A stretch of DNA of 41,432 nucleotides from a virus. Within the stretch, counting starts at the first letter, position 1. Every line of letters begins with the position of its first letter. Both the position numbers and the translations under genes were made by a program. The notes under the pieces were generated by a model. It had not been told where the DNA came from. It searched no databases and saw nothing but the letters and a program-made list of their open reading frames with translations. Where the stretch lies: positions 1 to 41,432 of IMG/VR virus record IMGVR_UViG_3300010370_000076, one strand, 5' to 3'. This document shows positions 719 to 23,667 of this stretch, in pieces.

Positions 719-1315
719 ATGAAGCTTTCTGTTGCAATGTTACGCAAGATCATCAAAGAAGAAGTCGAGGCATCGCTCGCCGAGGCCCCCGGGTTCCTCG
801 GACGTCTCATGGGCGGATCCAAGGCGAAGAGCGGAGCTCCCGCAGTCGACTACGCGTCGATCATCAGAGCTCTCTCAGACTCGTCTGCTAAGTCAAATCA
901 GAAAGAATTCAACGCCGCAGTGACCCGACTACACGACGCCTTCGAGGGTTCAGTGGCGCGCGGCGCCAATCCGCAGGAAGAGGCCGAGGTGGTGGGTGCA
1001 GCCTTGAAGCGCGTCGGCCTCCCAGACGAAGAGATCGAGGAGGTGAAGGCCGACCTCCTGTATCGCGAGCGAAATCGTGCGGCGGCGGCTGAAAAGAGTC
1101 GTTTAAAGGGCGCGATGGAGTCGGCGATCAAGGGACTCGTCGCCGATCCAGAAACGAAGGCAGAGCTCATCGCTCTCCTCACAGCGAAGAGAGACGCGAA
1201 GGGCACCGCCCGCAAGGCGGCGTCTGCCGCCGTGACATCGTTCCTCGGACAGAAGCTTCCGGGCTTCAATCCGGTCGAGCTCCACGGAACGCTCAGCCGC
1301 CTCTACGGCCTCTGA
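719..1315 (+). CDS. Unknown helical protein with N-terminal MKI-type leader (198 aa)
   Basis: The first 23 residues (MKLSVAMLRKIIKEEVEASL and onward) match a leader found on four other proteins in this window (1845, 13638, 23181, 23359). The leader ends in L-A-E-A at residues 20-23, which resembles the T4-type prohead-protease consensus (hydrophobic-x-E then A/G). The rest is Ala/Glu/Lys-rich and predicted mostly helical, with no recognised domain. The ATG has a GGAG six bases upstream. An excellent intrinsic terminator follows at 1335-1359, so this is a discrete transcription unit. A packaged internal or head protein is an inference from the leader only. Confidence 0.75.
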   Translation: MKLSVAMLRKIIKEEVEASLAEAPGFLGRLMGGSKAKSGAPAVDYASIIRALSDSSAKSNQKEFNAAVTRLHDAFEGSVARGANPQEEAEVVGAALKRVGLPDEEIEEVKADLLYRERNRAAAAEKSRLKGAMESAIKGLVADPETKAELIALLTAKRDAKGTARKAASAAVTSFLGQKLPGFNPVELHGTLSRLYGL

Positions 1316-1334
1316 GTCGCCACGCCAATCAGAC

Positions 1335-1366
1335 GAAACGGCGCCTCCGGCGCCGTTTCTCATTTC
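1335..1366 (+). terminator. Intrinsic terminator after the 719-1315 gene
   Basis: A perfect 11-base-pair stem (GAAACGGCGCC / GGCGCCGTTTC, 1335-1345 with 1349-1359) with a three-base loop is followed by a modest T-rich tail (CTCATTTCT). It lies 20 bases after the stop codon. Confidence 0.85.
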
Positions 1367-1372
1367 TCCCCG

Positions 1373-1401
1373 TGTAAAGTGCAACCGCCGGGCTGTATCC
1401 T
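1373..1401 (+). promoter_or_regulatory. Phage promoter TGTAAA-17-TATCCT
   Basis: TGTAAA (1373-1378) and TATCCT (1396-1401) are separated by 17 bases. The start codon of the next gene begins 6 bases later, at the expected transcription start, so a leaderless message is predicted. This is one of about twenty sites of this form in the window. Confidence 0.75.
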
Positions 1402-1407
1402 GGTGTC

Positions 1408-1632
1408 ATGGACGCAATCAGCTACATCCGAACCTTCCGAGACGCCTACGAGGCACGAGACACCGTCGCGGCACGCCGCGCCGCCACACAGCTTCGCAGC
1501 GAACCGTGGCCCACCGTCGCACTCACGTGCTCGCGCCTCATGGGCCTGGGCTCCGAAGCGACCGACGAGACCCGTTGGCACGGGTCCCACCTGGGCGACG
1601 TTCTCCTGGAGGCTCACTCGAGGCAACGGTAG
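1408..1632 (+). CDS. Unknown small protein, leaderless (74 aa)
   Basis: Unrecognised 74-residue protein rich in Ala, Arg and Thr (DAISYIRTFRDAYEARDTVA at the start), probably a small helical soluble protein. The ATG lies 6 bases after the -10 box of the promoter at 1373-1401 and has no Shine-Dalgarno sequence, so translation is expected from a leaderless message. It is followed 7 bases later by a small lipoprotein gene, probably in the same transcript. Confidence 0.65.
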   Translation: MDAISYIRTFRDAYEARDTVAARRAATQLRSEPWPTVALTCSRLMGLGSEATDETRWHGSHLGDVLLEAHSRQR

Positions 1633-1639
1633 GTTCGCG

Positions 1640-1795
1640 ATGGTCGTTCGTTCGGCGGCGCTCGCCGCTCTCGTCTCCTCGCTGATTGCCTGCGATCCAC
1701 CTGATGGATCTCCGAGTCCCCAGCCGCCCGACGCGGGCGACGAGCGTCTCCCGTGCGGATGCTACCGGGGAGACCCGCTGTGCCCGTGCCTCTGA
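1640..1795 (+). CDS. Small Cys-rich lipoprotein (51 aa)
   Basis: A short basic start (MVVR) leads into a hydrophobic run and the lipobox S-L-I-A-C with Cys18 as the predicted lipidated residue. The mature part is Pro/Asp-rich and ends in a Cys cluster (CGCYRGDPLCPCL). It is most likely exported and lipid-anchored in the host envelope. Phage lipoproteins of this size can act in superinfection exclusion or as the outer-membrane half of a spanin pair; neither role is shown here. The start is supported by GGTAGG upstream. Confidence 0.6.
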   Translation: MVVRSAALAALVSSLIACDPPDGSPSPQPPDAGDERLPCGCYRGDPLCPCL

Positions 1796-1844
1796 GGTTT
1801 TTCTCGACGTGCCCCATACATAGGGAATATTCAGGAGAATTCGC

Positions 1845-2192
1845 ATGAAGATCAAGGTTGGAGAATTGAGGCGCGCGATCCGTGAAGTGGTGGCTGAGGC
1901 CTACGTCGACCCGAACGCCGCAGCCCTCAAGTCGCTCGCGAAGCTCGCCGTCGCCGACATGGCCGCGGGCGGGACGCCCGAGGACGTCTACGAGTGGCTC
2001 GTCGCCGAGACGGACCTGGGCGACGGACAGCACCGCGCCAACGCGGTCGTGGTGCTCATCAAGAAGTCGGACCCAGCCGCTGGGGCTGCGCTCGCCGCCG
2101 TGGCGAAGCCCCTGCCTCCGCCGCGCTACGTCGCGCCGTGGTCGGGAGCCTCGGGCCGCGTCGCCACGAAGATGTACGACTCCGACGTGTAA
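1845..2192 (+). CDS. Unknown protein with N-terminal MKI-type leader (115 aa)
   Basis: The start (MKIKVGELRRAIREVVAEAY) matches the leader shared by five proteins here. It contains V-A-E-A at residues 16-19, again resembling a prohead-protease site. The remaining 95 residues are Ala/Val-rich and helical, then Pro-rich (LPPPRYVAPWSG), with no known domain. A good ribosome-binding site (CAGGAG, then eight bases to ATG) fixes the start. The gene ends inside the -35 box of the promoter for the next gene. Confidence 0.75.
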   Translation: MKIKVGELRRAIREVVAEAYVDPNAAALKSLAKLAVADMAAGGTPEDVYEWLVAETDLGDGQHRANAVVVLIKKSDPAAGAALAAVAKPLPPPRYVAPWSGASGRVATKMYDSDV

Positions 2193-2216
2193 ACCTGCGT
2201 CGCCGTTGTGTATACT
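2188..2216 (+). promoter_or_regulatory. Phage promoter TGTAAA-17-TATACT
   Basis: TGTAAA (2188-2193), 17 bases, TATACT (2211-2216). The -35 box overlaps the end of the previous gene. The ATG at 2224 begins 7 bases after the -10 box, so the message is predicted to be leaderless. Confidence 0.8.
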
Positions 2217-2223
2217 GTATCAC

Positions 2224-2460
2224 ATGAACGACACAAGCACACAAATGGTACAACCGCCGCCGCACGATCTCCCTGCGCCGCCTGCTGCATACGCCGGCTG
2301 GACCGCCACAGGCCTTCTGTTGTACGTGAGTTTCATCGGCATCGCGGCGCTCGGCGCCGCACTCTGGCACGAGGTCCGGGGGCTCCGCCGCTCCGCCGAC
2401 GCACTCCTCGCGAAGATCGCGGAGACTCGCGCCTCCCTTCGACCGGAGGCGCGCCGATGA
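2224..2460 (+). CDS. Small membrane protein, leaderless (78 aa)
   Basis: One hydrophobic segment (residues about 27-47, TATGLLLYVSFIGIAALGAA) separates a Pro-rich N-terminus from a charged C-terminal helix (RGLRRSADALLAKIAETRAS), so a single-span membrane protein is likely. The reading frame is open further upstream, but this ATG is chosen because it lies 7 bases after a strong -10 box. It heads a run of coupled genes to 4227 joined by ATGA, GTGA and TTGA overlaps. Function unknown. Confidence 0.7.
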   Translation: MNDTSTQMVQPPPHDLPAPPAAYAGWTATGLLLYVSFIGIAALGAALWHEVRGLRRSADALLAKIAETRASLRPEARR

Positions 2461-2777
2461 GCGACTCCTACGACACCACCGACAAGTTCCGAGTCACCGT
2501 CCGGATGCGGAGCGGTGGCTCTCTCGAGCTCGGCACATTCGACTCCCTCGGCGAGGCGGTCGCCGCCGTCGACGATTTCAAGGCCGAGCGCGACGACGTC
2601 AAGTGGACGGTGAAGCAGCGCGGGATGGGCGAGGCGAAGACGTCGTTCGTCGCGGCGATGGGCCTCGACGGGATCACCGACCCGCAGATCGTCGTCACGA
2701 AGGTCGAGGCACGCGCCGCTCGACGGGGCGCGAGCAGCGAGTGGTACGCGGCCAACAAGCGAGGGCGTGAGCTGTGA
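2457..2777 (+). CDS. Unknown protein (106 aa)
   Basis: The ATG overlaps the upstream stop (ATGA). The N-terminal half reads like alternating beta strands (KFRVTVRMRSGGSLELGTFD) followed by a helix, giving a small alpha/beta protein. The C-terminus is basic (ARAARRGASSEWYAANKRGR), as in a nucleic-acid-binding tail, but no family is recognised. Third-position GC bias is strong, as in its neighbours. Confidence 0.65.
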   Translation: MSDSYDTTDKFRVTVRMRSGGSLELGTFDSLGEAVAAVDDFKAERDDVKWTVKQRGMGEAKTSFVAAMGLDGITDPQIVVTKVEARAARRGASSEWYAANKRGREL

Positions 2778-2977
2778 TCTCTGAGTCTCGTCTCAAGGCT
2801 CTCGAGGTGGCGTACAGCGACCTCGACGGCCTGAGAGACATGGGCATCGACGAGTTCGCAGACGACGTGCTGGGCCTCGTCTGGGAGATGCGGGGTCTCA
2901 TGCACGAGCTCACGTTCCTCACGAACAAGATCGCAGAACTCGAGGCGCTCCTCGCGATGGCGCGCCGGTCTCCCTAG
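2774..2977 (+). CDS. Small acidic coiled-coil-like protein, GTG start (67 aa)
   Basis: The GTG overlaps the previous stop (GTGA). The product is almost wholly helical with heptad-like leucines (LVWEMRGLMHELTFLTNKIA, then ELEALLAMA), so a short coiled coil is likely. It is acidic in the first half. No family is recognised. Confidence 0.6.
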   Translation: MISESRLKALEVAYSDLDGLRDMGIDEFADDVLGLVWEMRGLMHELTFLTNKIAELEALLAMARRSP

Positions 2978-2989
2978 GAAAGGAAACGA

Positions 2990-3262
2990 ATGTCACTCAA
3001 CGCGTCTCGTCTCTCTAGCTCTATGCACGAAGCGATCCTCTCCACAGGTGTGAAGGATCCCGTGGGTCAACTGAAGTCTGTGTGCGACGCGATCGCCTCC
3101 GCGATCGTTCGCGAGATCACCACCTTCGCCGAGATTCCGTCCCCGCCGCCTGTGGTCGTGCCGCCCGCCACCTTCTCGCAGGGCGCGGGTCCCGCCGCTG
3201 TCCCAAATCCCCTTCCCATCCCCATTCCAAGTCAACCCATCCCACCTGGAGGCATCAAGTGA
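2990..3262 (+). CDS. Unknown protein with Pro-rich tail (90 aa)
   Basis: Residues 1-48 form a helical segment. Residues 49-90 are dominated by proline (IPSPPPVVVPPATF, then NPLPIPIPSQPIPPGGIK), an extended linker-like tail. A Shine-Dalgarno sequence AAAGGAAAC precedes the ATG. The stop overlaps the GTG of the next gene. No function can be assigned; Pro-rich tails in phage are common on structural linkers. Confidence 0.6.
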   Translation: MSLNASRLSSSMHEAILSTGVKDPVGQLKSVCDAIASAIVREITTFAEIPSPPPVVVPPATFSQGAGPAAVPNPLPIPIPSQPIPPGGIK

Positions 3263-3546
3263 TCAGATACAGCTTCTCCGACCTCAAGTTCTCTCCCCGC
3301 TCAATGGGCGGGGGTGTGGGAGCTCGACTCACGTTTCCCAACGGCTACACCGCTTCCGTCGTGAGGGGAGACAACACGTACGGCGGCCGCAGCGGCCTCT
3401 ACGAGCTAGCAGTCCTCCACGATGGTAGAATTGTGTACGACACGCCCGTGACGTCAGACGTGTTGGGTCACCTCACTGAGGGCGACGTCACGGAGCGTCT
3501 CAACGAAGTGGCTGCGCTTCCCCGCCGCGGAGGACTTTCGAATTGA
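3259..3546 (+). CDS. Unknown beta-rich protein, GTG start (95 aa)
   Basis: It starts at a GTG overlapping the previous stop, with CTGGAGG about 9 bases upstream. The sequence alternates short strands and glycines (GGGVGARLTFPNGYTASVVR, then YELAVLHDGRIVYDTPV), as in a small beta sandwich or barrel. No family is recognised. The stop overlaps the TTG start of the next gene (TTGA). Confidence 0.6.
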   Translation: MIRYSFSDLKFSPRSMGGGVGARLTFPNGYTASVVRGDNTYGGRSGLYELAVLHDGRIVYDTPVTSDVLGHLTEGDVTERLNEVAALPRRGGLSN

Positions 3547-3728
3547 CCCCGAGACGGTGGGCTCATCCCGTGGGAAGCGTCGTTTATGTCTTCGGACGTC
3601 ACGAGTTTCTCGTCGAAGAGGTGTTCGTCTCGGGTGAGTCCACCGTGTACTTGGGGGTCCTCGAGGGACGATACAGGGCTTCTGTCGTCGGGGAGCACGT
3701 CACGCGTCGCAGGGAGACACCTGCGTGA
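3543..3728 (+). CDS. Small SH3/KOW-like beta protein, TTG start (61 aa)
   Basis: The TTG start overlaps the previous stop. The product has the strand pattern VGSVVYVFGRHEFLVEEVFV, then TVYLGVLEGRYRASVVG, resembling the small SH3/KOW-like proteins scattered through this window. Assignment to that group rests on pattern only. It sits in the coupled run 2224-4227 and ends in a GTGA overlap. Confidence 0.5.
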   Translation: MTPRRWAHPVGSVVYVFGRHEFLVEEVFVSGESTVYLGVLEGRYRASVVGEHVTRRRETPA

Positions 3729-3922
3729 GGCTCGAGCCCCGCTCGGGAGACCTGGTGATCTGGCATACGCCCGAGGGTGCTGCGATCGTCGGCATGATCA
3801 TTGCCGAGGAGACTGGATTCGGCGGCGGATCGACGGGTTGGTTCAGGGTCCTCGCGACGCTGGGCGGCCGCACGAAGACTTACCTCACGCGCGCGGGCCA
3901 AGTGGAGATACTGACGACTTGA
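3725..3922 (+). CDS. Small SH3/KOW-like protein, GTG start (65 aa)
   Basis: It begins with the motif S-G-D-L-V-I-W (residues 7-13), the same GD/ELV entry strand seen in about a dozen short proteins here. A central glycine-rich turn (TGFGGGSTGWFRVLATLGG) and a final strand (GQVEILTT) follow, giving a compact five-strand barrel in outline. Known SH3/KOW barrels bind RNA, DNA or peptides; what this one binds is unknown. GTG start, coupled at both ends. Confidence 0.55.
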   Translation: MRLEPRSGDLVIWHTPEGAAIVGMIIAEETGFGGGSTGWFRVLATLGGRTKTYLTRAGQVEILTT

Positions 3923-4227
3923 GTCGCGTTCCAACGTCACAGGAAATCGCGGAGTCCGGACCGCAGGTGGGAGAGCTCGTCCGCGTGGACGAGTGGGTGA
4001 GAAACATGATCGTGGACCACTTGCGTCTCACGGACTTTCCTTGTCCGTCTTACGACAGTCACACCGTTGCACGCCTCGAGCGCGACGACATCGCCGTGAT
4101 ACTCGACGTAGCAGTGATCGACGGCGCCGACGGCATGAGCTACGACAAGTACTACAGAATCCTCGGTCCCGGAGGTGTAGGATGGGTAGGATCCAACTAC
4201 GTCGAGTCTGCTGAGAACGACGCGTAA
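3919..4227 (+). CDS. Small SH3/KOW-like protein, TTG start (102 aa)
   Basis: The entry strand is VGELVRVDEWV and the closing segment is GPGGVGWVGSNYVE, the G-x-G-W-[VI] signature shared with the proteins at 20475 and 22915. The reading frame stays open upstream, but the TTG at 3919 overlaps the previous stop exactly as its neighbours do, so it is the likely start. This is the last gene of the coupled run and the end of the GC-rich block. Confidence 0.55.
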   Translation: MSRVPTSQEIAESGPQVGELVRVDEWVRNMIVDHLRLTDFPCPSYDSHTVARLERDDIAVILDVAVIDGADGMSYDKYYRILGPGGVGWVGSNYVESAENDA

Positions 4228-4239
4228 GATGCAGGAGGT

Positions 4240-4275
4240 GTCGCGTGGGTCCGCTTGGGAGGACCCGCAAGCGAC
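4240..4275 (+). other. Interrupted hairpin at the GC-block boundary
   Basis: GTCGC (4240-4244) pairs with GCGAC (4271-4275) and GGGTCC (4247-4252) with GGACCC (4261-4266), leaving an eight-base loop. There is no T-run after it, so it is not a textbook terminator. It begins right after a perfect Shine-Dalgarno-like AGGAGGTG. Confidence 0.45.
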
Positions 4276-4322
4276 GCCGCTGCCATCGACGTCGTCGCTC
4301 ATTTGAAAAAGCTGCTTCCTGA
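4245..4322 (+). CDS. Possible 25-residue Arg-rich peptide
   Basis: A GTG codon follows the unusually complete ribosome-binding sequence AGGAGGTG by a few bases and opens a 25-codon frame. The peptide is very basic (RTRKRRRCHRRRRSFEKAA). The same bases form the hairpin at 4240-4275, so the frame may be accidental. It is listed because the ribosome-binding site is among the best in the window and no other start follows it. Confidence 0.25.
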   Translation: MGPLGRTRKRRRCHRRRRSFEKAAS

Positions 4323-4407
4323 TCGTCTGTAAATATATTTTGATTTTCGGACCCTCCGGGTCTCTAAAAAATCGCAGCAAAAACGTTGATTCTCCGATAT
4401 CTATTTC

Positions 4408-4692
4408 GTGAGATCAATCGGCGAGAACAAGAAACCACCGAGACCCAAGCCAGGCGACCTGGTCATTGTGAACTCCGCTAACGAATTCATAAACGTCTAC
4501 ACGCCTACAGAAAAATTTTCATTTGCAAACGTGAGCTTCACAGCTCACAACGGCGAGATGGGCGTCGTCATCGACTACGCTTCAGATGAATCGGGATCAA
4601 TATTGTTCCACTATTTGAAGATACTCTTCCAGCGCGGCGCCGTCGGAATTGCCCACGGCGGTCTCATAAAAATTCTAGAAGATATCGAGTGA
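4408..4692 (+). CDS. Small SH3/KOW-like protein, GTG start (94 aa)
   Basis: PKPGDLVIVNSANEFINVYT opens the barrel. A middle strand GEMGVVIDYA and the pair LKILFQRGAVGIAHGGLIKI complete the same layout as the other PGDLV proteins in the window. The start is a GTG about 5 bases after a TATCTA box; there is no Shine-Dalgarno sequence, so it may be leaderless too, though the -35 (AGCAAA) fits poorly. Function unknown. Confidence 0.6.
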   Translation: MRSIGENKKPPRPKPGDLVIVNSANEFINVYTPTEKFSFANVSFTAHNGEMGVVIDYASDESGSILFHYLKILFQRGAVGIAHGGLIKILEDIE

Positions 4693-4701
4693 AGTGATCA
4701 G

Positions 4702-4730
4702 TGTAAACTGATGTCTGAATTTTGTAGTGT
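4702..4730 (+). promoter_or_regulatory. Phage promoter TGTAAA-17-TAGTGT
   Basis: TGTAAA (4702-4707), 17 bases, TAGTGT (4725-4730). The ATG at 4737 starts 6 bases after the -10 box. No ribosome-binding site is possible in the predicted message. Confidence 0.75.
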
Positions 4731-4736
4731 AAATTC

Positions 4737-4997
4737 ATGTTCATTCTAAGAAAAGGTGACAAGGTTGTGACCGTCGTCGAGGCCCGCTCTTTTTCTGATA
4801 CGGGAGCAAATAAAGCGCTTTCAGCAGTCAGAATTCTTCCTGCCGGGAGCACGGGAATTGTCGTGAACGTTCTGACAGATGTCTCTGGCGATGGGCGTAC
4901 TGTCGCAGCTGAATTCGACGGAGAGATTCTCTACGTTCGCGAAGATTGTCTAAAGACGATTGAAGCTGAGACCGAAGAAAGTCTTCCTAATAGTTAG
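4737..4997 (+). CDS. Small SH3/KOW-like protein, leaderless (86 aa)
   Basis: RKGDKVVTVVEAR (residues 5-17) and AGSTGIVVNVLTD (about 36-48) give the entry strand and the central G-[IV]-V-[VIL] strand of the recurrent family, and ILYVREDCLKTIE closes it. The C-terminus is acidic. The ATG is at the predicted transcription start of the promoter at 4702-4730. The gene is followed after 3 bases by a membrane-protein gene. Confidence 0.65.
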   Translation: MFILRKGDKVVTVVEARSFSDTGANKALSAVRILPAGSTGIVVNVLTDVSGDGRTVAAEFDGEILYVREDCLKTIEAETEESLPNS

Positions 4998-5000
4998 ACC

Positions 5001-5225
5001 ATGATCATTCTTCTTAGTATAATGGGAGCTGCCTATGTGTTTGGAGGTCTAGTCACATGGCTGACCACTGCAGTAGAGAGTATAGGAGAGTTGGCGCCTG
5101 GATCTTACGCCGATGTCCTGAAGGACTTCTCTCAGAGGGGTAGTCTGTACGAATTCATCGTATCGCTATACGTCTTTCTTCTCTGGCCGATTCACGTGAC
5201 CATCAAGCGGATGACAAAGCAATGA
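5001..5225 (+). CDS. Membrane protein, two hydrophobic segments (74 aa)
   Basis: Hydrophobic segments lie at residues 1-23 (MIILLSIMGAAYVFGGLVTW) and about 51-66 (FIVSLYVFLLWPIHV), with a basic tail (TIKRMTKQ). This is consistent with a two-span membrane protein with both ends on the same side. Holins can have this shape, but so can many phage membrane proteins. The stop overlaps the next ATG (ATGA). Confidence 0.6.
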   Translation: MIILLSIMGAAYVFGGLVTWLTTAVESIGELAPGSYADVLKDFSQRGSLYEFIVSLYVFLLWPIHVTIKRMTKQ

Positions 5226-5488
5226 ATGTATCCTACGAAGCGCTAAAGATAATCATGACGTCTCTTTCTCCTGAAAGAAGGGCATCGATTCAGTCCATAA
5301 CTGAGGCGATGGTCAAGCTGAAGTTGAACCACGCGACTATGGATGCCATCCTCGCCTCGATCATACTCGAGGCTGCCGAGGTTCAGTTCGTTGAAGACGG
5401 TGGTGCGATTCCCCCGGTGAGAGAATCTACGCTCGATGTCCTTCGACCCATCTTTGAATCTAAAAAGGACAAGATCAAGAAGAATTGA
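5222..5488 (+). CDS. Unknown helical protein (88 aa)
   Basis: The ATG overlaps the upstream stop. The product is helical (ALKIIMTSLSPERRASIQSI, then MVKLKLNHATMDAILASIIL) with a basic end (KKDKIKKN). No family is recognised. It runs head-to-head into the minus-strand protease gene, with 9 bases between stop codons and no clear terminator. Confidence 0.6.
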   Translation: MNVSYEALKIIMTSLSPERRASIQSITEAMVKLKLNHATMDAILASIILEAAEVQFVEDGGAIPPVRESTLDVLRPIFESKKDKIKKN

Positions 5489-5497
5489 CTGTTACTA

Positions 5498-6178
5498 CTA
5501 CTGGCAGCCTGCGTCCTTCGACTCTTTTCCTTTTTTGCCATTGATTTCATAGACCTCTTTCAGGTCTCTCTTTGTGATGCACTTCGCGCCAGGCCACGAT
5601 CCGTTCATGATGGACTTGTCGCCCTCTTTGTTGTCCTTCATCCCCCACATATGACCCAGCTCGTGGAGCATTGTCGTGTACATGACGTTTTCATTGCTCA
5701 TTCTGTCTGCGACTATTGCGATGAATTTATAGGCACAGCCTGTGAAGGTGAACGCCATGATCTGCCGCTTCTCTGCGTCGAGTGCTTGGACTACAGGATG
5801 TGATGACGTTATCCTTATGACGTAAAAAGTGCTCCTGCAGTTTTTCGACCACGGATCTGGTACTTTTGCGTCGCCCGTGAGATCCATGTCTAGAACATTG
5901 AGTGTCGGAGAATCACCTTTCATGATGATGTCATAGTACATTCCGTCTTTCTCTTCTGGGGGCAGGATCATGATGTCGCCGCGGGTCTCAGTTATCCAGC
6001 TGATGAACGCCTTGACTAGAATCGACGACTCGACTCCGCTGAAACCCTCTGTTATTAACGCGTTCGTTGTGATGAGTTGTGTATTTTCAACGGGTTTTTG
6101 GGCCTCAGAGGCGCTTATTACGCCGATGAAGGACATTACAAAGGCGATCGTAGTAGCATATTTTCCGAACTTGCGCAT
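5498..6178 (-). CDS. Secreted metzincin-like zinc protease (226 aa)
   Basis: An N-terminal signal peptide (residues 1-24, basic MRKFGKY then hydrophobic to SASEA) precedes a domain with the zinc motif HELGHMWGMKD at residues 172-182, that is HExxHxxGxxD. SIMNG at 189-193 fits the Met-turn. Metzincins usually have His as third ligand; Asp there is known from snapalysin-type enzymes. Six cysteines suggest an extracytoplasmic fold. ATG 6178 is chosen because TGGAGG lies 6 bases upstream. It is transcribed opposite to its neighbours, which suggests separate expression. A role in cleaving host envelope or virion proteins is inference. Confidence 0.75.
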   Translation of the reverse strand: MRKFGKYATTIAFVMSFIGVISASEAQKPVENTQLITTNALITEGFSGVESSILVKAFISWITETRGDIMILPPEEKDGMYYDIIMKGDSPTLNVLDMDLTGDAKVPDPWSKNCRSTFYVIRITSSHPVVQALDAEKRQIMAFTFTGCAYKFIAIVADRMSNENVMYTTMLHELGHMWGMKDNKEGDKSIMNGSWPGAKCITKRDLKEVYEINGKKGKESKDAGCQ

Positions 6179-6270
6179 CCTCAACCTCCAAGAAGTGTAT
6201 CTTAATTGTAACTAAGCAATAGAGGAATAAAAAGAGAATCTTTCTAAAAACTTGCGTCGATATTTGTGTT

Positions 6271-6285
6271 ACGGTGTAGCACCGT
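6271..6285. repeat. Short perfect hairpin between divergent genes
   Basis: ACGGTG-TAG-CACCGT in the 181-base divergent interval between the protease gene and the MazG-like gene. It could be an operator; no regulator can be named. The rest of the interval is AT-rich, with no clear match to the window's main promoter form. Confidence 0.4.
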
Positions 6286-6359
6286 GTGACACTTTGTCTT
6301 GAACACTACAGCAAATCTAAAATACATTTTCAGTACCCGCTGAGAGAAATTGGAACACC

Positions 6360-8064: not shown

Positions 8065-9195
8065 ATGTCGAACATGTCCATCAAGACCTTTCTCTCTGTC
8101 GCTGAAGTTCTCCCGATCGAGACTTCTGTTCTACTCCGTGGTCCCCACGGCATCGGCAAGAGCCAAGTGGTTCGTCAAGTCGCAAAGTCCTTCGATCTCC
8201 CGGTAATCGATCGCCGTCTTTCGCAGATGACCGAAGGCGACATGGTCGGTCTCCCAAGCACCGACGGCGAAGTGACCCGCTTCAATCCTCCTGATTGGTA
8301 CAAGCGTGCGTGCACCACGCCTGTGTGTCTCTTCCTCGATGAGCTGAACCGAGCCACCCCGGAAGTTATGCAGGCAGCCTTCCAGATCGTTCTGGATCGT
8401 GAGCTGAACGGCTGGCAGCTTCACTCGGAGACTCGAGTATTCGCAGCAGTCAATGCCTCTGCAGCCTATACCGTCAACGAGATGGATCCGGCTCTCCTCG
8501 ACCGCTTCTGGACGATCGACCTCGAGCCTACCGTTGAGGACTGGCTCACCTGGGCTCGTTCGGAAGGTGCAGACGATCAGCCTCGAGTCTACAGCGTCAT
8601 CACCGACTTCATTGCAGGCAACGAAAAGTGGCTCGACTCGCCCAAGGACGCGGAGCCCGGAAAGGTTTCTCCCAGCCGTCGTTCCTGGGAGCGTCTCTCT
8701 GACGCTCTCACCAAGGCAGGTATCGCTCAACTCGATGAACCTGCAAACAACACTCTTTTCTATCCAATCTGCCTCGGATACATCGGAACTGAAGCTACCA
8801 TCGCTCTCAACGGATTTGCGAAGACGATCGATGCTCAGGTTTCCGGTGAGCAAATCATCAACGAATACGACAAGGTTAAGAAGAAGGTCAAGAAGCTCGG
8901 CGCTGAGAAGCAAAACATTCTCATTGACAAGGTTACTACCTATGTCACCAAGGACCTGAAGACTCTCAACGACAAGCAGGGCAAGAATCTTCAAAACTTC
9001 ATGAATGATCTTAGCGAAGAACATCGGGTTTCGTGCTGGTCTAAGATGACGCAAGGCAGTGGAACTGACAATCTTGAGCTTGCTAAGTCCATTCACAAGT
9101 GGTGTGTCGAGGGAATCCTCGCTTCGTTCGGGGTTTCCGCTGACGCAGCAGTAAAGGCACTTACCGCTAGCTCGAAGAAGAAGGCAGAGAAGTGA
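8065..9195 (+). CDS. MoxR-type AAA+ ATPase (376 aa)
   Basis: Walker A is GPHGIGKS at residues 26-33 and Walker B CLFLDELNRA at about 87-96. Sensor-type sequence (VFAAVNAS) and an arginine-finger region (DPALLDRFWTIDL) follow, the order of MoxR ATPases. MoxR proteins act as chaperone-like motors that usually pair with a von Willebrand A-domain protein. A DUF2201/VWA protein is encoded 23 kb away at 32584-33960 and is driven by the same promoter form, so they probably work together. The C-terminal 130 residues are Lys-rich and helical. Start supported by AAGGAG. Confidence 0.9.
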   Translation: MSNMSIKTFLSVAEVLPIETSVLLRGPHGIGKSQVVRQVAKSFDLPVIDRRLSQMTEGDMVGLPSTDGEVTRFNPPDWYKRACTTPVCLFLDELNRATPEVMQAAFQIVLDRELNGWQLHSETRVFAAVNASAAYTVNEMDPALLDRFWTIDLEPTVEDWLTWARSEGADDQPRVYSVITDFIAGNEKWLDSPKDAEPGKVSPSRRSWERLSDALTKAGIAQLDEPANNTLFYPICLGYIGTEATIALNGFAKTIDAQVSGEQIINEYDKVKKKVKKLGAEKQNILIDKVTTYVTKDLKTLNDKQGKNLQNFMNDLSEEHRVSCWSKMTQGSGTDNLELAKSIHKWCVEGILASFGVSADAAVKALTASSKKKAEK

Positions 9196-13637: not shown

Positions 13638-14111
13638 ATGAAGATCACAGAAGCGCAGTTACGAGAGATTATCCGAGAGGAAGTTATCAGGGAGCAACGC
13701 GAGTCAATTCGCCAAGAGATGCTCCGCGAAGGTTTGTTAGATGCGATCAAATCTGCTGTGGGTTCCGGCGATGATTCCGGTAGCAATGTGAAGGCTTCGG
13801 CAGGGTTCACAGCTATCGCGAAATTGTTCTCTGGGCTTGCAGAACGCATATCATCGGATGTTAACAAGATCCAAACTGCACTTCCTGCCTCTAAAGAGCC
13901 CACAGATGCAGTTGGAATTGCCCACGCTATTATCAACGGATTTATCTCGGGTGGCCTCGGATCCCTCGGGCAGATGAACAAAGATCTTGGACTGATCGCA
14001 AAGGCTTTCGAGGGAGCCGCAAAAACGGTGGATTCAGACCCCGAGGGAACGAAGAAGAAGCTCTGGAGTACTATCCAGAACAATCTCGGCAAGGCAACTT
14101 CTTCCGGCTGA
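13638..14111 (+). CDS. Unknown protein with N-terminal MKI-type leader (157 aa)
   Basis: The start MKITEAQLREIIREEVIREQ matches the leader shared with the proteins at 719, 1845, 23181 and 23359. It continues as a longer charged helix to L-R-E-G at residues 30-33, which fits a prohead-protease-like site. The body is glycine/alanine-rich (GIAHAIINGFISGGLGSLGQ). No domain recognised. AAGGG precedes the ATG. A capsid-internal protein is my inference. Confidence 0.75.
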   Translation: MKITEAQLREIIREEVIREQRESIRQEMLREGLLDAIKSAVGSGDDSGSNVKASAGFTAIAKLFSGLAERISSDVNKIQTALPASKEPTDAVGIAHAIINGFISGGLGSLGQMNKDLGLIAKAFEGAAKTVDSDPEGTKKKLWSTIQNNLGKATSSG

Positions 14112-14521: not shown

Positions 14522-14603
14522 GGAGGGTTACCCAAGTAGACAAAGGGAGAAGACTGTAAATCTTCCGGCTCCGCCTTCGTAGGTGCAAATCCTTCACCCT
14601 CCA
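14522..14603 (+). tRNA. tRNA-Tyr (GTA)
   Basis: Acceptor GGAGGGT/ACCCTCC, anticodon stem GAAGA/TCTTC with loop CTGTAAA (anticodon GTA), a long variable arm as in bacterial tRNA-Tyr, and discriminator A. The T-arm has one mismatch and a TGCAAAT loop. CCA is not encoded. Confidence 0.85.
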
Positions 14604-14613
14604 CTCAATTTCA

Positions 14614-14698
14614 GGAACGTTGGCCGAGTGGCTAATGGCAGCTGTTTACTAAACAGCCGTGGATAAAACCACCGCAGGTTCGAATCCTGCACGTTCCG
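14614..14698 (+). tRNA. tRNA-Ser with anticodon ACT
   Basis: Acceptor GGAACGT/ACGTTCC, anticodon stem GCTGT/ACAGC with loop TTACTAA (anticodon ACT), a long variable arm closed by GTGG/CCAC and discriminator G, all as in tRNA-Ser. The T-arm GCAGG-TTCGAAT-CCTGC is perfect. An A at the wobble position for AGU/AGC codons is unusual in bacteria and phages, where GCT is normal. CCA is not encoded. Confidence 0.85.
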
Positions 14699-14714
14699 CG
14701 AAAGAAAGATATCA

Positions 14715-18073: not shown

Positions 18074-18102
18074 TGCAAAGTTTCACCTCCGCGATTTACA
18101 AT
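18074..18102 (+). promoter_or_regulatory. Phage promoter TGCAAA-17-TACAAT
   Basis: TGCAAA (18074-18079), 17 bases, TACAAT (18097-18102). The ATG at 18110 begins 7 bases after the -10 box. A GGAGGTG just before the ATG would lie upstream of the predicted start of transcription. Confidence 0.75.
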
Positions 18103-18109
18103 GGAGGTG

Positions 18110-18832: not shown

Positions 18833-19026
18833 AGAAACAGAAGCTGGTTCGCAACGTTGCCCGGTGTGCCAAGTGCAACGCTGTGATCGAATCTCGTTAC
18901 ACACACGAGTTCGTGTGGTGTGAGTGCAAGGCCATTTTCACCGATGGCGGTACGGATTACATCCGGAGAGGCGGCGAGCTCGAGGCCCTCATCGATCTCA
19001 GTGAGTTCGTGGAGGTGGAGGCTTGA
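18829..19026 (+). CDS. Small zinc-binding-type protein, DUF7695-like (65 aa)
   Basis: C-A-K-C at residues 13-16 and W-C-E-C at about 30-33, with the spaced text IESRYTHEFVWC and DGGTDYIRRGG. This is a pattern I associate with DUF7695, a short family of unknown function common in phages and bacteria. ATGA overlap upstream, TTGA overlap downstream. Confidence 0.65.
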   Translation: MKKQKLVRNVARCAKCNAVIESRYTHEFVWCECKAIFTDGGTDYIRRGGELEALIDLSEFVEVEA

Positions 19027-19919
19027 ACTTGGAATCTCTGAGGAGTAACTGGCTCACAGAAGCTCTCATCGGTGGCGGCATCACCTCGCATCAGGTAGAA
19101 GTGTTCAATGCTGCATGGGATCACGGAGGTTACATTGCCGGTGGTTTCGGGCGGATGGTTGGTGTCCTCAATGCCCGGGCGTGCGAGGGAATGGCGCTGT
19201 ATCCCGCGTGGAGGGCTCGCGAAGGCTGGAGGGGTCTTGCACAATACACAGAGATGATGATGGAACCGCCCAGACCCCCGTGGGAGGGTAAGGCTTCAGG
19301 CAACTGGAAGTGGAGGGGAACCATCGGTGATATAGATCTCTTCTTTCCGAACGAGGCAGCCGCATGGGTTGCCATTAATCGAGTGAAATCACGTTTTGGA
19401 GCAGGAATCTACCACACAGCCACGAAGGCTGGTTACGCTCAGGAGCTTGTAATCGATCGGTGTCGATACCAGTTCATCACGAAGGTGAACGGAACACCCG
19501 AAGAGGTTCTCGGTTCCTTCGATCTCACCAACGCGAAGGTGGCACTCCTGCCCGATGCGATTCTCACTGCCCCCGAGTGGAGAGAGCTGGAAGAGAAACG
19601 TACCATCGGGATCGATGTGTGGAGCAAGCCCAACCTGTTGTGGCGAGTGTGGAAGTGGGCGAAGAAACACACTTACCTCAAGCTCCGCTCGAGCGATGAA
19701 GATCGCTTCGTGAATGTGGTGTTCGATGCCCTCGCAGCCACGAAGGATGGCTCTCTTAAACGGTGGGATCGCCCTGTTACGAAGCACGAGGTCCAGCGGT
19801 TCGCGAAGATGTTCATCCATTCCTTCGAACCCTCCTCAGCCCTTAAGGCCGCGATGATTCTCGATGATTACGACAGGATGAACGTGATGAGAGACGTAAT
19901 GAGCAAAGGTGTCAAATGA
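19023..19919 (+). CDS. Nucleotidyltransferase-superfamily-like protein, TTG start (298 aa)
   Basis: Residues 37-45 (YIAGGFGRM) and 100-108 (TIGDIDLFF; D103, D105) match the GG-x-D-x-D core of polymerase-beta-type nucleotidyltransferases. A strand and the phrase SFDLTNAKVALLPD near residue 165-180 may give the third carboxylate. Family members add nucleotides to RNA, proteins or small molecules; the substrate here is unknown. The N-terminal 36 residues and C-terminal helices are lineage-specific. The TTG start overlaps the preceding stop. Confidence 0.65.
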   Translation: MNLESLRSNWLTEALIGGGITSHQVEVFNAAWDHGGYIAGGFGRMVGVLNARACEGMALYPAWRAREGWRGLAQYTEMMMEPPRPPWEGKASGNWKWRGTIGDIDLFFPNEAAAWVAINRVKSRFGAGIYHTATKAGYAQELVIDRCRYQFITKVNGTPEEVLGSFDLTNAKVALLPDAILTAPEWRELEEKRTIGIDVWSKPNLLWRVWKWAKKHTYLKLRSSDEDRFVNVVFDALAATKDGSLKRWDRPVTKHEVQRFAKMFIHSFEPSSALKAAMILDDYDRMNVMRDVMSKGVK

Positions 19920-20458
19920 TCAATGACGATGCTGTTAACATCACAGATCTGAAGCTGTGCTACGTTTGTCCCCGTGATCGGTTCGCGTGGTTCACCTCCA
20001 TTCCGCTGGAATCGCAGTGGGGTGATGATTGGAACGATGCCCCCTATGAGCACAATGCAGGGGATCCTTACAGTGAACACAAGATTGATGGGAAGTACGT
20101 GTCCCACCATCTCGTGAAGGTGGCGTGGGATGGACCCTACAGTACTCCTGCGGACCTCGCAGGAATCAATTCCTTCTGGAGCGTACAGGGCATCAACCGT
20201 GGCTGCGTTGCGTGGCTTGTTCCCGATGGCTGGGGATCAAAGGATGATGCACGACCGATTCCGGCAGGAATCTCTCTCATTGGTTTCATCGGAGCGATCG
20301 AGGGCGCAGGTGGTAACGTGTACCTTCCTCGCAACATCTCTTGCCAGATCAATGCAATCGTTCGGGATAATCACCTGATCTCCCAGGATTTTGAGGAGTC
20401 TGGCGATGAGCAACATGCAACAAATCTGGAAGCAGTTATGCTGAGCAAGAGGAAGTGA
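19916..20458 (+). CDS. Conserved-looking unknown protein (180 aa)
   Basis: The ATG overlaps the previous stop. Notable is a Trp/Asp/Asn-rich segment (WGDDWNDAPYEHNAGDPY, residues 35-52). The hydrophobic segment ISLIGFIGAIEGAGGNVYL near residue 120 is too short for a clear membrane span. I have the impression of a family found in other phages but cannot name it. Confidence 0.6.
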   Translation: MINDDAVNITDLKLCYVCPRDRFAWFTSIPLESQWGDDWNDAPYEHNAGDPYSEHKIDGKYVSHHLVKVAWDGPYSTPADLAGINSFWSVQGINRGCVAWLVPDGWGSKDDARPIPAGISLIGFIGAIEGAGGNVYLPRNISCQINAIVRDNHLISQDFEESGDEQHATNLEAVMLSKRK

Positions 20459-20474
20459 GGATAGTTATGTATTT

Positions 20475-20738
20475 GTGCAACACAGAAGAAGAGAATCTCA
20501 GTTCTACATCGGTGAGCTTGTTCGACCAAGTTTTGGTAACGAGTCAGTTTACTTATTTCCGTGTGATCCCACACAAACTTTGGCGGTGGGAGAAATCATT
20601 AACAAATTTGGACCTCCGTGGCCACGTAATTCTACCGGAATCGTTCTGGACTTCAGAGACGGCGGATGGGTGAGGCTGGTGGTTCCGGGAGGCGGTCTCG
20701 GCTGGATCGGTGACTGGAATATAGTTCGCGTGGAATGA
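20475..20738 (+). CDS. SH3/KOW-like small protein, start uncertain (87 aa)
   Basis: IGELVRPSFGNESVYLF, NSTGIVLDFRDGGWVRLVV and GGGLGWIGDWNIVRVE reproduce the three signature strands of the recurrent family, so this frame is preferred. The listed GTG has no proper ribosome-binding site. An ATG at 20467 with GAGGAT at a good distance opens a different frame without the family signature. The start, or a sequencing shift near 20470-20500, deserves checking. Confidence 0.55.
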   Translation: MQHRRRESQFYIGELVRPSFGNESVYLFPCDPTQTLAVGEIINKFGPPWPRNSTGIVLDFRDGGWVRLVVPGGGLGWIGDWNIVRVE

Positions 20739-20765
20739 TACTTACCTTTAGAGGTAATATCATTC

Positions 20766-21032
20766 ATGAAGATAGGTTCTCTCGTGACATCAAATGAAAT
20801 TGTTTACCTCGATCCACCTGAAATGGTCGTAGGAGAGGATGGAGAATCTTCGTGGAGCGAAATCTTGGAAAGAGATTTCAGAGACATTCCATTTGGTCCA
20901 AACCAAGTCGGTGTTGTAATAGACATTAGACCTACGAGTATAATGAATCACACATTTTGGATTAAGGTTCTTACTCCTCGTGGCGTTGGTGTCTGTTTTT
21001 CCGATGAATTAGATGAAATTGTATTGATGTAA
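20766..21032 (+). CDS. SH3/KOW-like small protein (88 aa)
   Basis: KIGSLVTSNEIVYLD, NQVGVVIDIRP and FWIKVLTPRGVGVCFSDELD give the same strand order as its upstream neighbour, so the two are probably tandem paralogues. A TAATAT box ends 5 bases before the ATG and there is no Shine-Dalgarno sequence. An imperfect inverted repeat (GATACTTACCT / AGGTAATATC) spans the upstream 25 bases. Confidence 0.6.
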   Translation: MKIGSLVTSNEIVYLDPPEMVVGEDGESSWSEILERDFRDIPFGPNQVGVVIDIRPTSIMNHTFWIKVLTPRGVGVCFSDELDEIVLM

Positions 21033-21061
21033 TCTTTCAATCTTCGATATAGAATGGTAAC

Positions 21062-21499
21062 ATGATCCCAGATTATGAGGACATCCTCTCTAGAATTCCT
21101 GAACCGCCCAAATGGTGGGATGCTCATGGAACTCCTCGATATTGTGAGTTCCATCCTACTGAAAGTTCTAATCCGTACGCTCGTGAAGTTGCTCTCTTGA
21201 GGATTGCATGTCAAGGGTGTGGACATGAATTTGATGTGGAGATGAACTGGTGGGAACATTCACGTCATTGGAACGGTGACAGACTTGATCCACTTTCTAC
21301 TCCCTCGCGCTTAAAGGAATTGCACTATGGAGACCCGCCAAATATCGGCTGTTGTCTCGTGGGGCACACAATGAACTGTATAGACCTCAAGGTCCTTCAG
21401 TTTTGGGCACGCGAGCGCTCCCGATGGGAGCGGTGTCCTGAGCTGGAGATTAACCTAGAAAAATTGGAGGATTACTTTGGAGATAACATCAAATTCTAG
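21062..21499 (+). CDS. Cys/His-rich conserved phage protein (145 aa)
   Basis: Contains C-E-F-H and C-Q-G-C-G-H clusters in the first half and NIGCCLVGHTMNC in the second, so one or two zinc sites are likely. The phrase around GDPPNIGCCLVGHTM followed by a helical end is one I recall from other phage hypothetical proteins. A TAGAAT box ends 6 bases before the ATG (predicted leaderless); its -35 (TGTAAT, 16 bases away) is a near match. Confidence 0.6.
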   Translation: MIPDYEDILSRIPEPPKWWDAHGTPRYCEFHPTESSNPYAREVALLRIACQGCGHEFDVEMNWWEHSRHWNGDRLDPLSTPSRLKELHYGDPPNIGCCLVGHTMNCIDLKVLQFWARERSRWERCPELEINLEKLEDYFGDNIKF

Positions 21500-21800
21500 C
21501 ACAGAGGGAATCTCTGGGTCTTACGTCAAATCTAACAACTTCCACAGATTTGAGTGTTCTTGCACAAGTTTTGATCACAACATTAGATTCGAAGTGGACG
21601 AGGAGATGGGCCACATCTCTATTTCAGTGCCACTTAACCACTGGTTGCCTTGGTGGAAGCGGCTATGGCTTGCTGTAAAGTACGTATTCAAGCGTACTGA
21701 GAGATATGGTCACTACGATACAGTAATGCTCAGTCCACACGATTACGATCGTATTCGGGCGCTGCTTGATGATTCACTCGAAAAAATGAGGGCATGGTAA
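21477..21800 (+). CDS. Conserved-looking phage protein, TTG start (107 aa)
   Basis: It starts inside the end of the preceding gene (23-base overlap) at a TTG after AATTGGAGG. A Cys-x-Cys pair in the N-terminal part (ECSCTSF) precedes an acidic strand region and a Trp-rich stretch (LNHWLPWWKRLWLAVKYVFK). This arrangement downstream of a Cys/His protein seems to be a conserved pair in phages. Function unknown. Confidence 0.6.
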   Translation: MEITSNSSTEGISGSYVKSNNFHRFECSCTSFDHNIRFEVDEEMGHISISVPLNHWLPWWKRLWLAVKYVFKRTERYGHYDTVMLSPHDYDRIRALLDDSLEKMRAW

Positions 21801-21801
21801 T

Positions 21802-22044
21802 ATGAAGTTCTATAAGCTACGTGACATGACGAACGGGAAGTACTCCTCGGGTGGAAATGAGCCTACCTGGAGTGAGGATGGAGGTAAGGTGTGGATGAAG
21901 TTGAAAGACTTAAAGGGACATCTCACCATGTGGAAGGAGAATAACAAGCAACAGATTTCACCCTTCTGGGAGGTGATCGAGATGGAGGTTACTGAAGCTC
22001 AAGCTTACCCAGCATCTGCAATTGTGGGAGAAAAGAAGAAGTGA
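21802..22044 (+). CDS. Unknown small protein (80 aa)
   Basis: Starts one base after the previous stop. The sequence (MKFYKLRDMTNGKYSSGGNE, then KVWMKLKDLKGHLTMWKENN) gives a strand-then-helix mini-domain. It ends in a Lys run whose codons overlap the next start (GTGA). I cannot name a family, though the KFYKLRD...GK.S.GG opening recalls short phage proteins that display grid-like conservation. Confidence 0.55.
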   Translation: MKFYKLRDMTNGKYSSGGNEPTWSEDGGKVWMKLKDLKGHLTMWKENNKQQISPFWEVIEMEVTEAQAYPASAIVGEKKK

Positions 22045-22424
22045 GTTTTGTCTCCAAATTTCCAAGCCTTTACAAGGGTCCGTATCCTGAAGAGCAGGTT
22101 TCCGAATGGAAGGATATTCGTGAAGTTCAAGAAAAACAACATCCCTATGATCGGGATGTCTTCTGTCGCGAGGTACCACAATCCGACGGGAAACTAAGTC
22201 CAACTCACTTCACAGTAAAAGTACCCGCCAACACCCTTGTCATTTACTACCCCAACCCAGATGAGCACACAATCTTCTCCCACTTTCGACCTGGTGAGAT
22301 GGTTCTCTACCTTGGAGAGCTACAAGGTATGCCTAATCATGGCGTTTTTGTAGACCGCGACGGACGAATTCGTGACGGATACCACTTGTGGAGTTTTCGT
22401 GTAATTCCTCACGACGAGCTGTGA
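22041..22424 (+). CDS. SH3/KOW-like protein, GTG start (127 aa)
   Basis: The C-terminal half holds the family pattern: RPGEMVLYLGELQGMPNHGV, then FVDRDGRIRDGYHLWSFRVI. The N-terminal 70 residues are charged and helical, an extension not present in relatives here. The downstream gene (22437) repeats the same last strands (FLNRDGKLERLLNELHIYSV), so the two are likely paralogues. Confidence 0.55.
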   Translation: MSFVSKFPSLYKGPYPEEQVSEWKDIREVQEKQHPYDRDVFCREVPQSDGKLSPTHFTVKVPANTLVIYYPNPDEHTIFSHFRPGEMVLYLGELQGMPNHGVFVDRDGRIRDGYHLWSFRVIPHDEL

Positions 22425-22436
22425 TACTTATGGGGC

Positions 22437-22655
22437 ATGCGCCCTGGGGACCTCGTGCTAGTTACGCAGAGAAGAACTGGTGTTCGAGAGATTATGGTGA
22501 GCATAGATCCTTCTTGCACATTTGAGAGAATATTCTCAGGTACTTGTACTTACTCTGTATTTCTAAATCGAGATGGCAAGCTAGAGAGGCTTCTTAACGA
22601 ACTACACATTTATTCTGTTATCCAAACAGTGACAAGTGACACGCAAGGTGCGTAG
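22437..22655 (+). CDS. SH3/KOW-like small protein (72 aa)
   Basis: Opens RPGDLVLVTQRRTGVREIMV and continues with YSVFLNRDGKLERLLNELHI, a minimal member of the family. The upstream box TACTTA ends 6 bases before the ATG and no ribosome-binding site is seen, so leaderless translation is again possible. Function unknown. Confidence 0.6.
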   Translation: MRPGDLVLVTQRRTGVREIMVSIDPSCTFERIFSGTCTYSVFLNRDGKLERLLNELHIYSVIQTVTSDTQGA

Positions 22656-22687
22656 AATATTCAGCAGAACAAGAGGATATCACCCCC

Positions 22688-22921
22688 ATGCCCGTAGAAA
22701 AGAAGAAGATAAAGAAGAAAGAACTGCTTAGGCGCATCGAAGACTTAGAATTTAAGCTCAGTGTATTACGAGACAGAGTGTCTAGCATTCGGGAGCAGCC
22801 CCTGCTGAACCCAGATACTCTTCTCACAAGACCTATAACTAAGTGTGGTCAGTGTGGAAATGAACCAGGCGGTGTTTGCATGAGCGTAAACTGTCCCTAT
22901 GGCGTAAAAGTTACATGCTGA
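22688..22921 (+). CDS. Small coiled-coil protein with C-terminal zinc motif (77 aa)
   Basis: A Lys-rich start and heptad helix (LLRRIEDLEFKLSVLRDRVS, residues 14-33) followed by C-G-Q-C-G ... C-M-S-V-N-C at residues 53-69, a plausible four-Cys zinc site. Reminiscent of small DNA- or RNA-binding adaptors, but no family is recognised. Its end overlaps the next start by 7 bases. Confidence 0.6.
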   Translation: MPVEKKKIKKKELLRRIEDLEFKLSVLRDRVSSIREQPLLNPDTLLTRPITKCGQCGNEPGGVCMSVNCPYGVKVTC

Positions 22922-23169
22922 ATCAATTAGCACCCAAAGTAGGCGAGATGATCATGGCAAAGTATGGTCACGTTCACGTGTGGGACGAGAACCTGGACGA
23001 CGAGGTCGATGAATTGAACAAGGGTGAGATCATGATCGTACTTGCCATCTCTCATCCCACGAGGAAGAAGCGACTCAATCCCGATCTGTATCGCAAGGTC
23101 CTCACGCAAGGCGCTCGAGTGGGATGGGTCCACTTGGACAATTGTTCTGAGGTTGACGTAGGTCACTAA
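22915..23169 (+). CDS. SH3/KOW-like small protein (84 aa)
   Basis: KVGEMIMAKYGHVHVWDENL, KGEIMIVLAISHP, and KVLTQGARVGWVHLDNCSEV carry the family entry strand, central strand and the G-x-G/V-W signature. ATG 22915 overlaps the previous stop. It is the last of the 20475-23169 cluster of such proteins. Confidence 0.6.
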   Translation: MLNQLAPKVGEMIMAKYGHVHVWDENLDDEVDELNKGEIMIVLAISHPTRKKRLNPDLYRKVLTQGARVGWVHLDNCSEVDVGH

Positions 23170-23180
23170 TACTTAAAGAC

Positions 23181-23378
23181 ATGAAGATCCGGTTATCAGA
23201 ATTAAGAAGAATTATCCGTGAGACCCTGGTTGAACAGGGTTGGGTTCCTGGACGTTGGTATCCTGGTTCGGGGGAGCCTTTGTCTGACGAAGAAGTCCAT
23301 TCCATGGAGCATGGTGGCCTGGGTGTAGAATCTGAAGCGGAAGAAGAAAAAGATGCCGATGAAAATTCGGATCTCTGA
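23181..23378 (+). CDS. Short protein with N-terminal MKI-type leader (65 aa)
   Basis: MKIRLSELRRIIRETLVEQG is the leader, with L-V-E-Q at residues 16-19 where relatives have x-x-E-A/G. The rest is short, acidic and probably disordered (VESEAEEEKDADENSDL). The gene overlaps the next one, which carries the same leader, so this is a tandem pair. No ribosome-binding site; a TACTTA box lies 5 bases before the ATG. Confidence 0.65.
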   Translation: MKIRLSELRRIIRETLVEQGWVPGRWYPGSGEPLSDEEVHSMEHGGLGVESEAEEEKDADENSDL

Positions 23379-23667
23379 GCTTCGAAAGCTAATTAGAAAA
23401 GTCTTGTCCGAAGGACCAGCTGGGCCTGCAATTACTGCAGATCCTACAGACGTGAAGGGTTTCTATCCTTACGAGATAGAACGCGGAACAGACATATTCG
23501 GATACTGGTATAAGTCTCCGGGTGACAAAGGTAGTAACGACCCCGGGCGCCCCGAAGACGCCGCCGAATATATTGGATTTAAGACAAAGGGAGCGACTCC
23601 GGAAGACGCCGCAGAGGAGGCTGCTCCCGAAGTAGAAGAAGTTCCTTCTGAACCTTCTGAAGTGTAA
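23359..23667 (+). CDS. Acidic protein with N-terminal MKI-type leader (102 aa)
   Basis: MKIRISELRKLIRKVLSEGP is the leader, with a clean prohead-protease-like L-S-E-G at residues 16-19. An ATG two codons earlier (23353) is possible, but the aligned leaders all start at the M of MK. The body is Gly/Asp/Tyr-rich then Glu/Pro-rich (EEVPSEPSEV), low in structure. Near-identical leaders in overlapping neighbours point to duplication or to strong selection on the leader itself. Confidence 0.65.
   Translation: MKIRISELRKLIRKVLSEGPAGPAITADPTDVKGFYPYEIERGTDIFGYWYKSPGDKGSNDPGRPEDAAEYIGFKTKGATPEDAAEEAAPEVEEVPSEPSEV

Follow-up and report, generated by a model that had tools for sequence, protein, structure and literature searches.

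A conserved N-terminal helix on divergent small proteins of large T4-like environmental phages as a candidate capsid-targeting leader

In phage T4, the internal proteins IPI, IPII, and IPIII and the Alt protein carry a short N-terminal peptide, the capsid-targeting sequence (CTS), and are cleaved by the prohead protease gp21. The CTS is given as 10-19 residues long in reviews, gp21 cuts after L/I-x-E, and an Asp at the cleavage position inhibits processing and leaves targeting intact (PMC9026906). The T4 internal proteins form a highly diverse set of defence proteins in which only the CTS is conserved (PMC3012670). Here we describe a leader with the consensus MKITKRQLRRIIREE, a basic amphipathic N-terminal helix of ~16 residues, which begins five proteins encoded by a virus record of 41,432 bases, IMG/VR IMGVR_UViG_3300010370_000076 (the window, meaning the whole stretch that was analysed, which is a fragment without a head module). 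The architecture of the T4 internal proteins, diverse bodies behind a conserved CTS, is the same as that of the leader proteins. We put the probability at roughly 75% that the leader is a CTS that works like that of the T4 internal proteins, that it is removed by the S77 prohead protease, and that its cargo is ejected with the DNA.

The likeness extends to the L/I-x-E that follows the short N-terminal peptide on divergent proteins, to the co-occurrence of genes for the S77 protease, gp23, and the core in these phages, and to some cargo domains typical of host-directed enzymes; the two peptides are likened by architecture, and neither homology nor common descent is claimed. Unlike T4, the leader phages have up to 21 leader genes, tandem arrays, and internal and C-terminal leader copies preceded by sites. 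Two other systems are comparable in part. In the portions of the SPN3US study that we draw on (PMC5694885), the prohead protease removes propeptides from head-packaged ejection proteins of SPN3US/phiKZ-like phages, and gp53 and gp54 have identical N-terminal 15 residues, the remainder having diverged; in contrast to the leader, the propeptides are mostly long (>100 residues), the cleavage motifs are A-x-E or S-x-E, and a broad family of tagged small proteins is not among the features described in those portions. The polyvalent proteins of phages and conjugative elements are likewise predicted to enter the capsid and to reach the recipient along with the DNA, but they are multidomain proteins with 2-15 domains (PMC5512222), whereas the leader proteins are mostly small (median, 114 amino acids [aa]) and have only the leader in common.

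Extent of the leader family

A first-pass annotation of the window had proposed that five unrelated proteins begin with the same helix and that this helix may load them into the head for injection. The five open reading frames (ORFs), starting at positions 719, 1845, 13638, 23181, and 23359, were all present, with ATG starts and on the + strand. A scoring profile trained without the window and without its near-identical homologues ranked all five first in the window, with scores of 37.6 (13638), 36.0 (23181), 25.7 (1845), 20.8 (719), and 20.8 (23359), so that the common leader was borne out. The sixth-best of the 2,313 start-codon positions in the window scored -7.2, leaving a gap of 28 bits below the five leaders, and random viral contigs totalling 1.12 Mb, with 54,477 starts, gave a best score of 3.9. 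A six-frame regular-expression scan of the window found the motif at the five starts and at two out-of-frame positions, which were chance matches. Beyond the leader, the five bodies showed no resemblance to one another, as had been stated. The protein at 23359 deviates slightly from the consensus that had been written for the leader, with L at position 11 and K at position 14 (MKIRISELRKLIRK).

The leader is a large, previously undescribed family that is nearly confined to large T4-like environmental phages. A DNA pattern for MKI-x4-LR-x-II-R-E occurred in at least 119 stretches of viral contigs, whereas bacterial and archaeal genomes with a total of 257 Gb contained it in only 12. Among the cellular stretches inspected were leader arrays in two viral-looking contigs of metagenome-assembled genomes (MAGs), PBIO01000025 and NHDW01000006, and a further contig with two leaders (L173); the remaining stretches gave weak or zero profile matches. 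The two MAG contigs (L175 in PBIO01000025.1; L179, L177, and L182 in NHDW01000006.1) contain 16-17 consecutive leader genes within 8 kb; their GenBank labels are Halobacteriovorax and Methylococcaceae, and they resemble phage contigs binned with bacteria. The core leader strings were not found in print in the literature searched.

A partial scan yielded 348 leader proteins with non-redundant bodies. Columns 2-15 were strongly conserved in these proteins, and the composition was that of the background after about residue 23. The 337 bodies tested fell into 283 families; as with a T4-type CTS, a short N-terminal peptide is common to otherwise divergent proteins. Five large records, covered almost completely, had the leader at 1 to 21 start codons and at no more than 3 of the 110,000-238,000 non-start positions in each; the record G013 had 21 start matches versus 3 among 236,509 non-start positions. 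The profile used for these records and for the collection of 348 proteins included the window leaders, whereas the profile that ranked the window did not. The number of leader genes differed among related phages, with 21 in G013, 7 in G007, and 1 in G018, and the genes were often arranged in tandem arrays, some of 16-17 genes. Four leader-bearing ORFs (L065, L023, L092, and L036) form a small family with a common C-terminal motif, (I/V/L)GHT (e.g., ...APFGSGMKQAKLDKDQKKIVGHT).

Candidate cleavage sites, head module, and cargo

Strict L/I-x-E motifs with E at residues 17-26 were found in 167 of 325 leader proteins, compared with 67±6 expected when residues were shuffled within columns, a procedure that leaves some relatedness among the sequences. 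When P1' was restricted to A/G/S/Q/N, 99 motifs were observed and 22±4.5 were expected. A gp21-type site thus follows the peptide as it does in a T4-type CTS, though some members lack it. The excess was strongest at a spacing of one residue (z=17.6); L/I-x2-E was also enriched (z=8.2), and we infer that this stems from LL-x-E. Replacement of E by D gave depletion (16 observed versus 30 expected), K, Q, and S gave no excess, R was below expectation, and L/I-x-N was modestly enriched. An artefact of helix chemistry, considered as the origin of the L-x-E excess, was rejected by these residue and spacing controls. Relative to the same motif in the bodies, A, G, and Q were enriched and L and I were depleted at P1'. 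In 21 relatives, the gp23 propeptide junction reads L-[RK]-E↓[SAQ] in most cases; two divergent relatives have L-H-E↓V and L-D-E↓A (arrows mark the presumed position of cleavage).

Among the five window proteins, the sites LAEA, VAEA, LREG, and LSEG that had been pointed out are all present, and the protein at 13638 has a second one, I17-R-E19↓Q, that had been missed. The LVEQ of 23181 had been treated as an exception; it fits the rule of this phage group, because the gp23 propeptide junction there allows Q at P1'.

A total of 26 leaders were located inside longer ORFs. A hydrophobic-x-E motif ended at most 6 residues upstream of the leader in 15 of these, against a background of 3.6±1.7 for randomly chosen positions of these ORFs, and E occupied the last positions before the leader in 22 of the 26, versus 10.8±2.4. 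The internal copies fit precursors that would be cut on either side of the helix; for T4 Alt, cleavage at both ends is reported (PMC9026906).

The lack of a prohead protease in the genome had been named in the first-pass annotation as a refutation of a capsid-targeting role. No prohead protease was found in the window, nor was one to be expected, because this 41-kb fragment lacks a head module, and for this reason the question was asked of its relatives. The two large records closest to the window are G013 (278 kb) and G007 (200 kb), to which 20 and 12 window ORFs match, respectively, with identities of up to 71%. Both contain S77, gp23, portal, and terminase genes, so that the refutation fails for these relatives. 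Peptidase_S77 was above the Pfam cut-off in 22 of the 25 leader records of ≥90 kb, and gp23 was present in 20. In the random contigs of ≥90 kb, S77 was above the cut-off in 4 of 10 and the leader was present in none; the difference for S77 gave a Fisher p of 0.007 with a small control (n=10). In the three leader records that have no S77, gp23 and the T4 portal were absent as well, and therefore the head module is missing from them; the MAG bin of one of the three carries S77 on another contig.

Leader-related helices are also encoded inside the head module of G013 and other relatives. The gene order in G013 is terminase, a small gene, portal, a gene of unknown function, S77, two small leader-like genes, a 164-aa gene, a gp22-like scaffold gene, gp23, and a leader protein gene. 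In 17 of 22 loci, S77 is followed downstream by a member of a small-gene family that begins with a degenerate leader helix. This core protein beside S77 has L-x-E↓[GAS] directly after the helix in 16 of the 17 cases (MAKISKSMLKGIVKECLVEILAEG...) and LLDA in the remaining one. In G018, the sole leader gene lies within three genes of S77. Prohead core genes of the gp67/gp68 type are located in the head module, among the portal, protease, and scaffold genes; the five window genes lie outside one. Two peculiarities of capsid genes were seen in related records: one phage (G001, 293 kb) has two adjacent gp23-type major-capsid genes (L156 and L162), and according to the search output the gp23 match region of L146 (record G005) contains one in-frame TAA, which may reflect a frameshift, alternative decoding, or an overrun of the alignment.

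Most of the 30 longer leader proteins searched against Pfam had no domain; among the domains that were detected were those of poly(A) polymerase (2e-36), M23 peptidase (1e-21), Fic/DOC (3e-9), and zeta toxin (1e-8). One of the leader-bearing ORFs (L038:10719-12341) encodes a 541-aa nucleotidyltransferase of the poly(A) polymerase type with the leader at its N terminus; if it is packaged, infection would deliver an enzyme that tails RNA.

The five leader proteins and other features of the window

All coordinates in the following refer to the + strand for the leader genes. Leader protein 1 (719..1315, 198 aa), whose ATG is preceded by GGAG, consists of the leader helix and a helical body; its 22-aa leader (719..784) ends at the candidate cleavage site L20-A-E22↓A23. 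An AlphaFold2 model of this protein alone contained a helix at residues 5-19, a disordered stretch with pLDDT scores of <50 over residues 17-41 that includes LAEA, and, beginning near residue 45, a helical domain predicted with confidence. A fold search with this model against viral and PDB libraries gave no significant match. Leader protein 2 (1845..2192, 115 aa), with AGGAG upstream, has an 18-aa leader (1845..1898) and the candidate cleavage V16-A-E18↓A19. Leader protein 3 (13638..14111, 157 aa) has a 19-aa leader (13638..13694) that extends to the candidate site I17-R-E19↓Q20 and a second segment (13695..13730) that ends at the candidate site L29-R-E31↓G32; its homologues in L007 (99%) and L088 (89%) keep the leader and both sites. 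The downstream EG(L/F)(L/F)D(A/T)IKSA is also found in the G013 leader protein encoded beside gp23. The AlphaFold2 model of protein 3 was of low confidence.

Leader protein 4 (23181..23378, 65 aa) belongs to a conserved small-protein family (GWVPGRWYPG) with homologues in at least 11 other loci, every one with the leader; its 18-aa leader (23181..23234) ends at the candidate cleavage L16-V-E18↓Q19, and no obvious ribosome-binding site was seen upstream of the gene. The end of this gene is overlapped by that of leader protein 5 (23359..23667, 102 aa), which has an 18-aa leader (23359..23412), the candidate cleavage L16-S-E18↓G19, and an alternative ATG start two codons earlier, at 23353. The same gene pair is kept in G013 with leaders and sites, and the G013 homologue of protein 5 (33367-33708) is 71% identical, with LQEG replacing LSEG. 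Pfam and PHROGs searches with the five window proteins gave nothing convincing, and no Pfam cut-off was reached.

Elsewhere in the window, a MoxR-type AAA ATPase (8065-9195) and a DUF2201 metallopeptidase/VWA-like protein (32584-33960), both conserved in G013, G006, and G011, are probably a functional pair. Positions 34661-38863 encode a tail-fibre-like protein of 1400 aa that carries an S74 chaperone domain at its C terminus; the N-terminal part of this protein has matches in the head-decoration and virion-structural families of PHROG. Two groups of tRNA genes, at 14522-14699 and 23919-24514, comprise five genes in all (Tyr, Ser-act, Asn, Ser-tga, and Lys).

Alternative explanations and meaning of the leader

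The proposal of a capsid-targeting leader cut by a T4-type protease gained support from the co-occurrence with S77, the E-specific spacing of L/I-x-E, and the gp23 junction, and further from the helices in core proteins beside the protease, the sites before internal leaders, and the enzyme cargo. The following course would account for these findings. During head assembly the helix would attach to the prohead core, like the CTS of the T4 internal proteins, and many unrelated proteins would be captured in the prohead in this way. In the short flexible segment behind the helix, which contains the prohead-protease site L/I-x-E, the S77 (gp21-type) protease would cut after the E and free the body inside the head, and the freed body would be ejected with the DNA into the next host cell. 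The family, its restriction to S77/gp23 phages, the L/I-x-E site, the like junction in gp23, and the related core-protein helices are seen in the sequences themselves; core binding, cleavage, and packaging are inferred from sequence patterns, and injection into the host and an effector role of the cargo are suggested by analogy with T4.

Several observations weigh against this explanation. About half of the leader proteins have no strict L/I-x-E at residues 17-26; some of those with no such site close to the helix may be cleaved at another place or remain uncut. A few leader copies are found at C termini, P3 of the protein at 1845 is V, outside the strict L/I rule, and in the 23181 family P1 has changed from E to Q once (homologue L111) and conservation continues uninterrupted across the candidate site. 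No convincing leader protein was found among the cultured INPHARED phages searched, and searches of cultured phages with the leader, with the 13638 protein, and with the core protein gave no homologues. Of two weak matches in the INPHARED search (E=2-3), one was LR756508, a 484-kb uncultured phage with leader-like genes and S77. In this genome the S77 domain is matched in two parts inside a 576-aa open frame (L365, LR756508.1, ~156507-158102) and the protease may thus be a fusion or be interrupted by an insertion. Judged by the protease, the nearest cultured relative is Microcystis phage Mel-JY01, which has a single weak leader-like start; it contains S77 without the leader family, and S77 hence does not imply the leader. 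Finally, no late-promoter motif was significantly enriched upstream of leader genes that would set these genes apart.

An unlikely alternative is that the leader marks prohead core components that help to construct the head or set its size and that, like T4 gp67/gp68 and gp22, are broken down or expelled during maturation and are not delivered. The leader-like helices in proteins encoded between the protease and the scaffold, a position like that of T4 gp67/68, would be explained in this way, as would the presence of more than one L/I-x-E in several leader proteins, such as 13638. However, three features suggest accessory cargo and do not resemble scaffold: the bodies fall into 283 families and include enzyme domains (Fic, zeta-like, poly(A) polymerase, and M23), the gene number varies widely among related phages (21 in G013, 7 in G007, and 1 in G018), and there are tandem arrays of 16-17 genes.

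We consider it improbable that the helix is a docking tag for some other structure, such as a replication complex, a membrane, a nucleus-like compartment, or host machinery, with the L-x-E excess as a by-product of helix chemistry. Amphipathic basic helices are a common type of interaction tag, but the excess is specific to E and peaks at one spacing, with D depleted; the P1' residues agree with the gp23 junction, internal leaders are likewise preceded by a site, and S77/gp23 head modules are present on leader-bearing contigs. More improbable still is a recombination module that allows small genes to be swapped behind one start region and that has no role at the protein level. Tandem arrays of leader genes with unrelated bodies would fit such a module, but conservation is at the protein level, the five window leaders using different codons, and nucleotide exchange would not yield an L/I-x-E excess downstream of the conserved block.

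If the leader is indeed a capsid-targeting sequence, then a simple signature would tell which among hundreds of unknown small genes of environmental jumbo phages are virion packaged, a question about virion content that is normally answered only through proteomics of cultured phages. The 283 body families of the partial scan would then constitute a large catalogue of candidate injected proteins, together with a loading tag amenable to reporter assays, and T4-style loading, known from a handful of proteins, would prove to operate at a much larger scale. The evidence leaves evenly balanced the broader idea that one exchangeable tag, a helix plus a protease site, serves as a general payload loading system in widespread uncultured large T4-like phages, in which arrays of 16-17 consecutive genes, and polyproteins with internal tag cassettes behind protease sites, would supply up to ~20 different host-directed proteins per virion.

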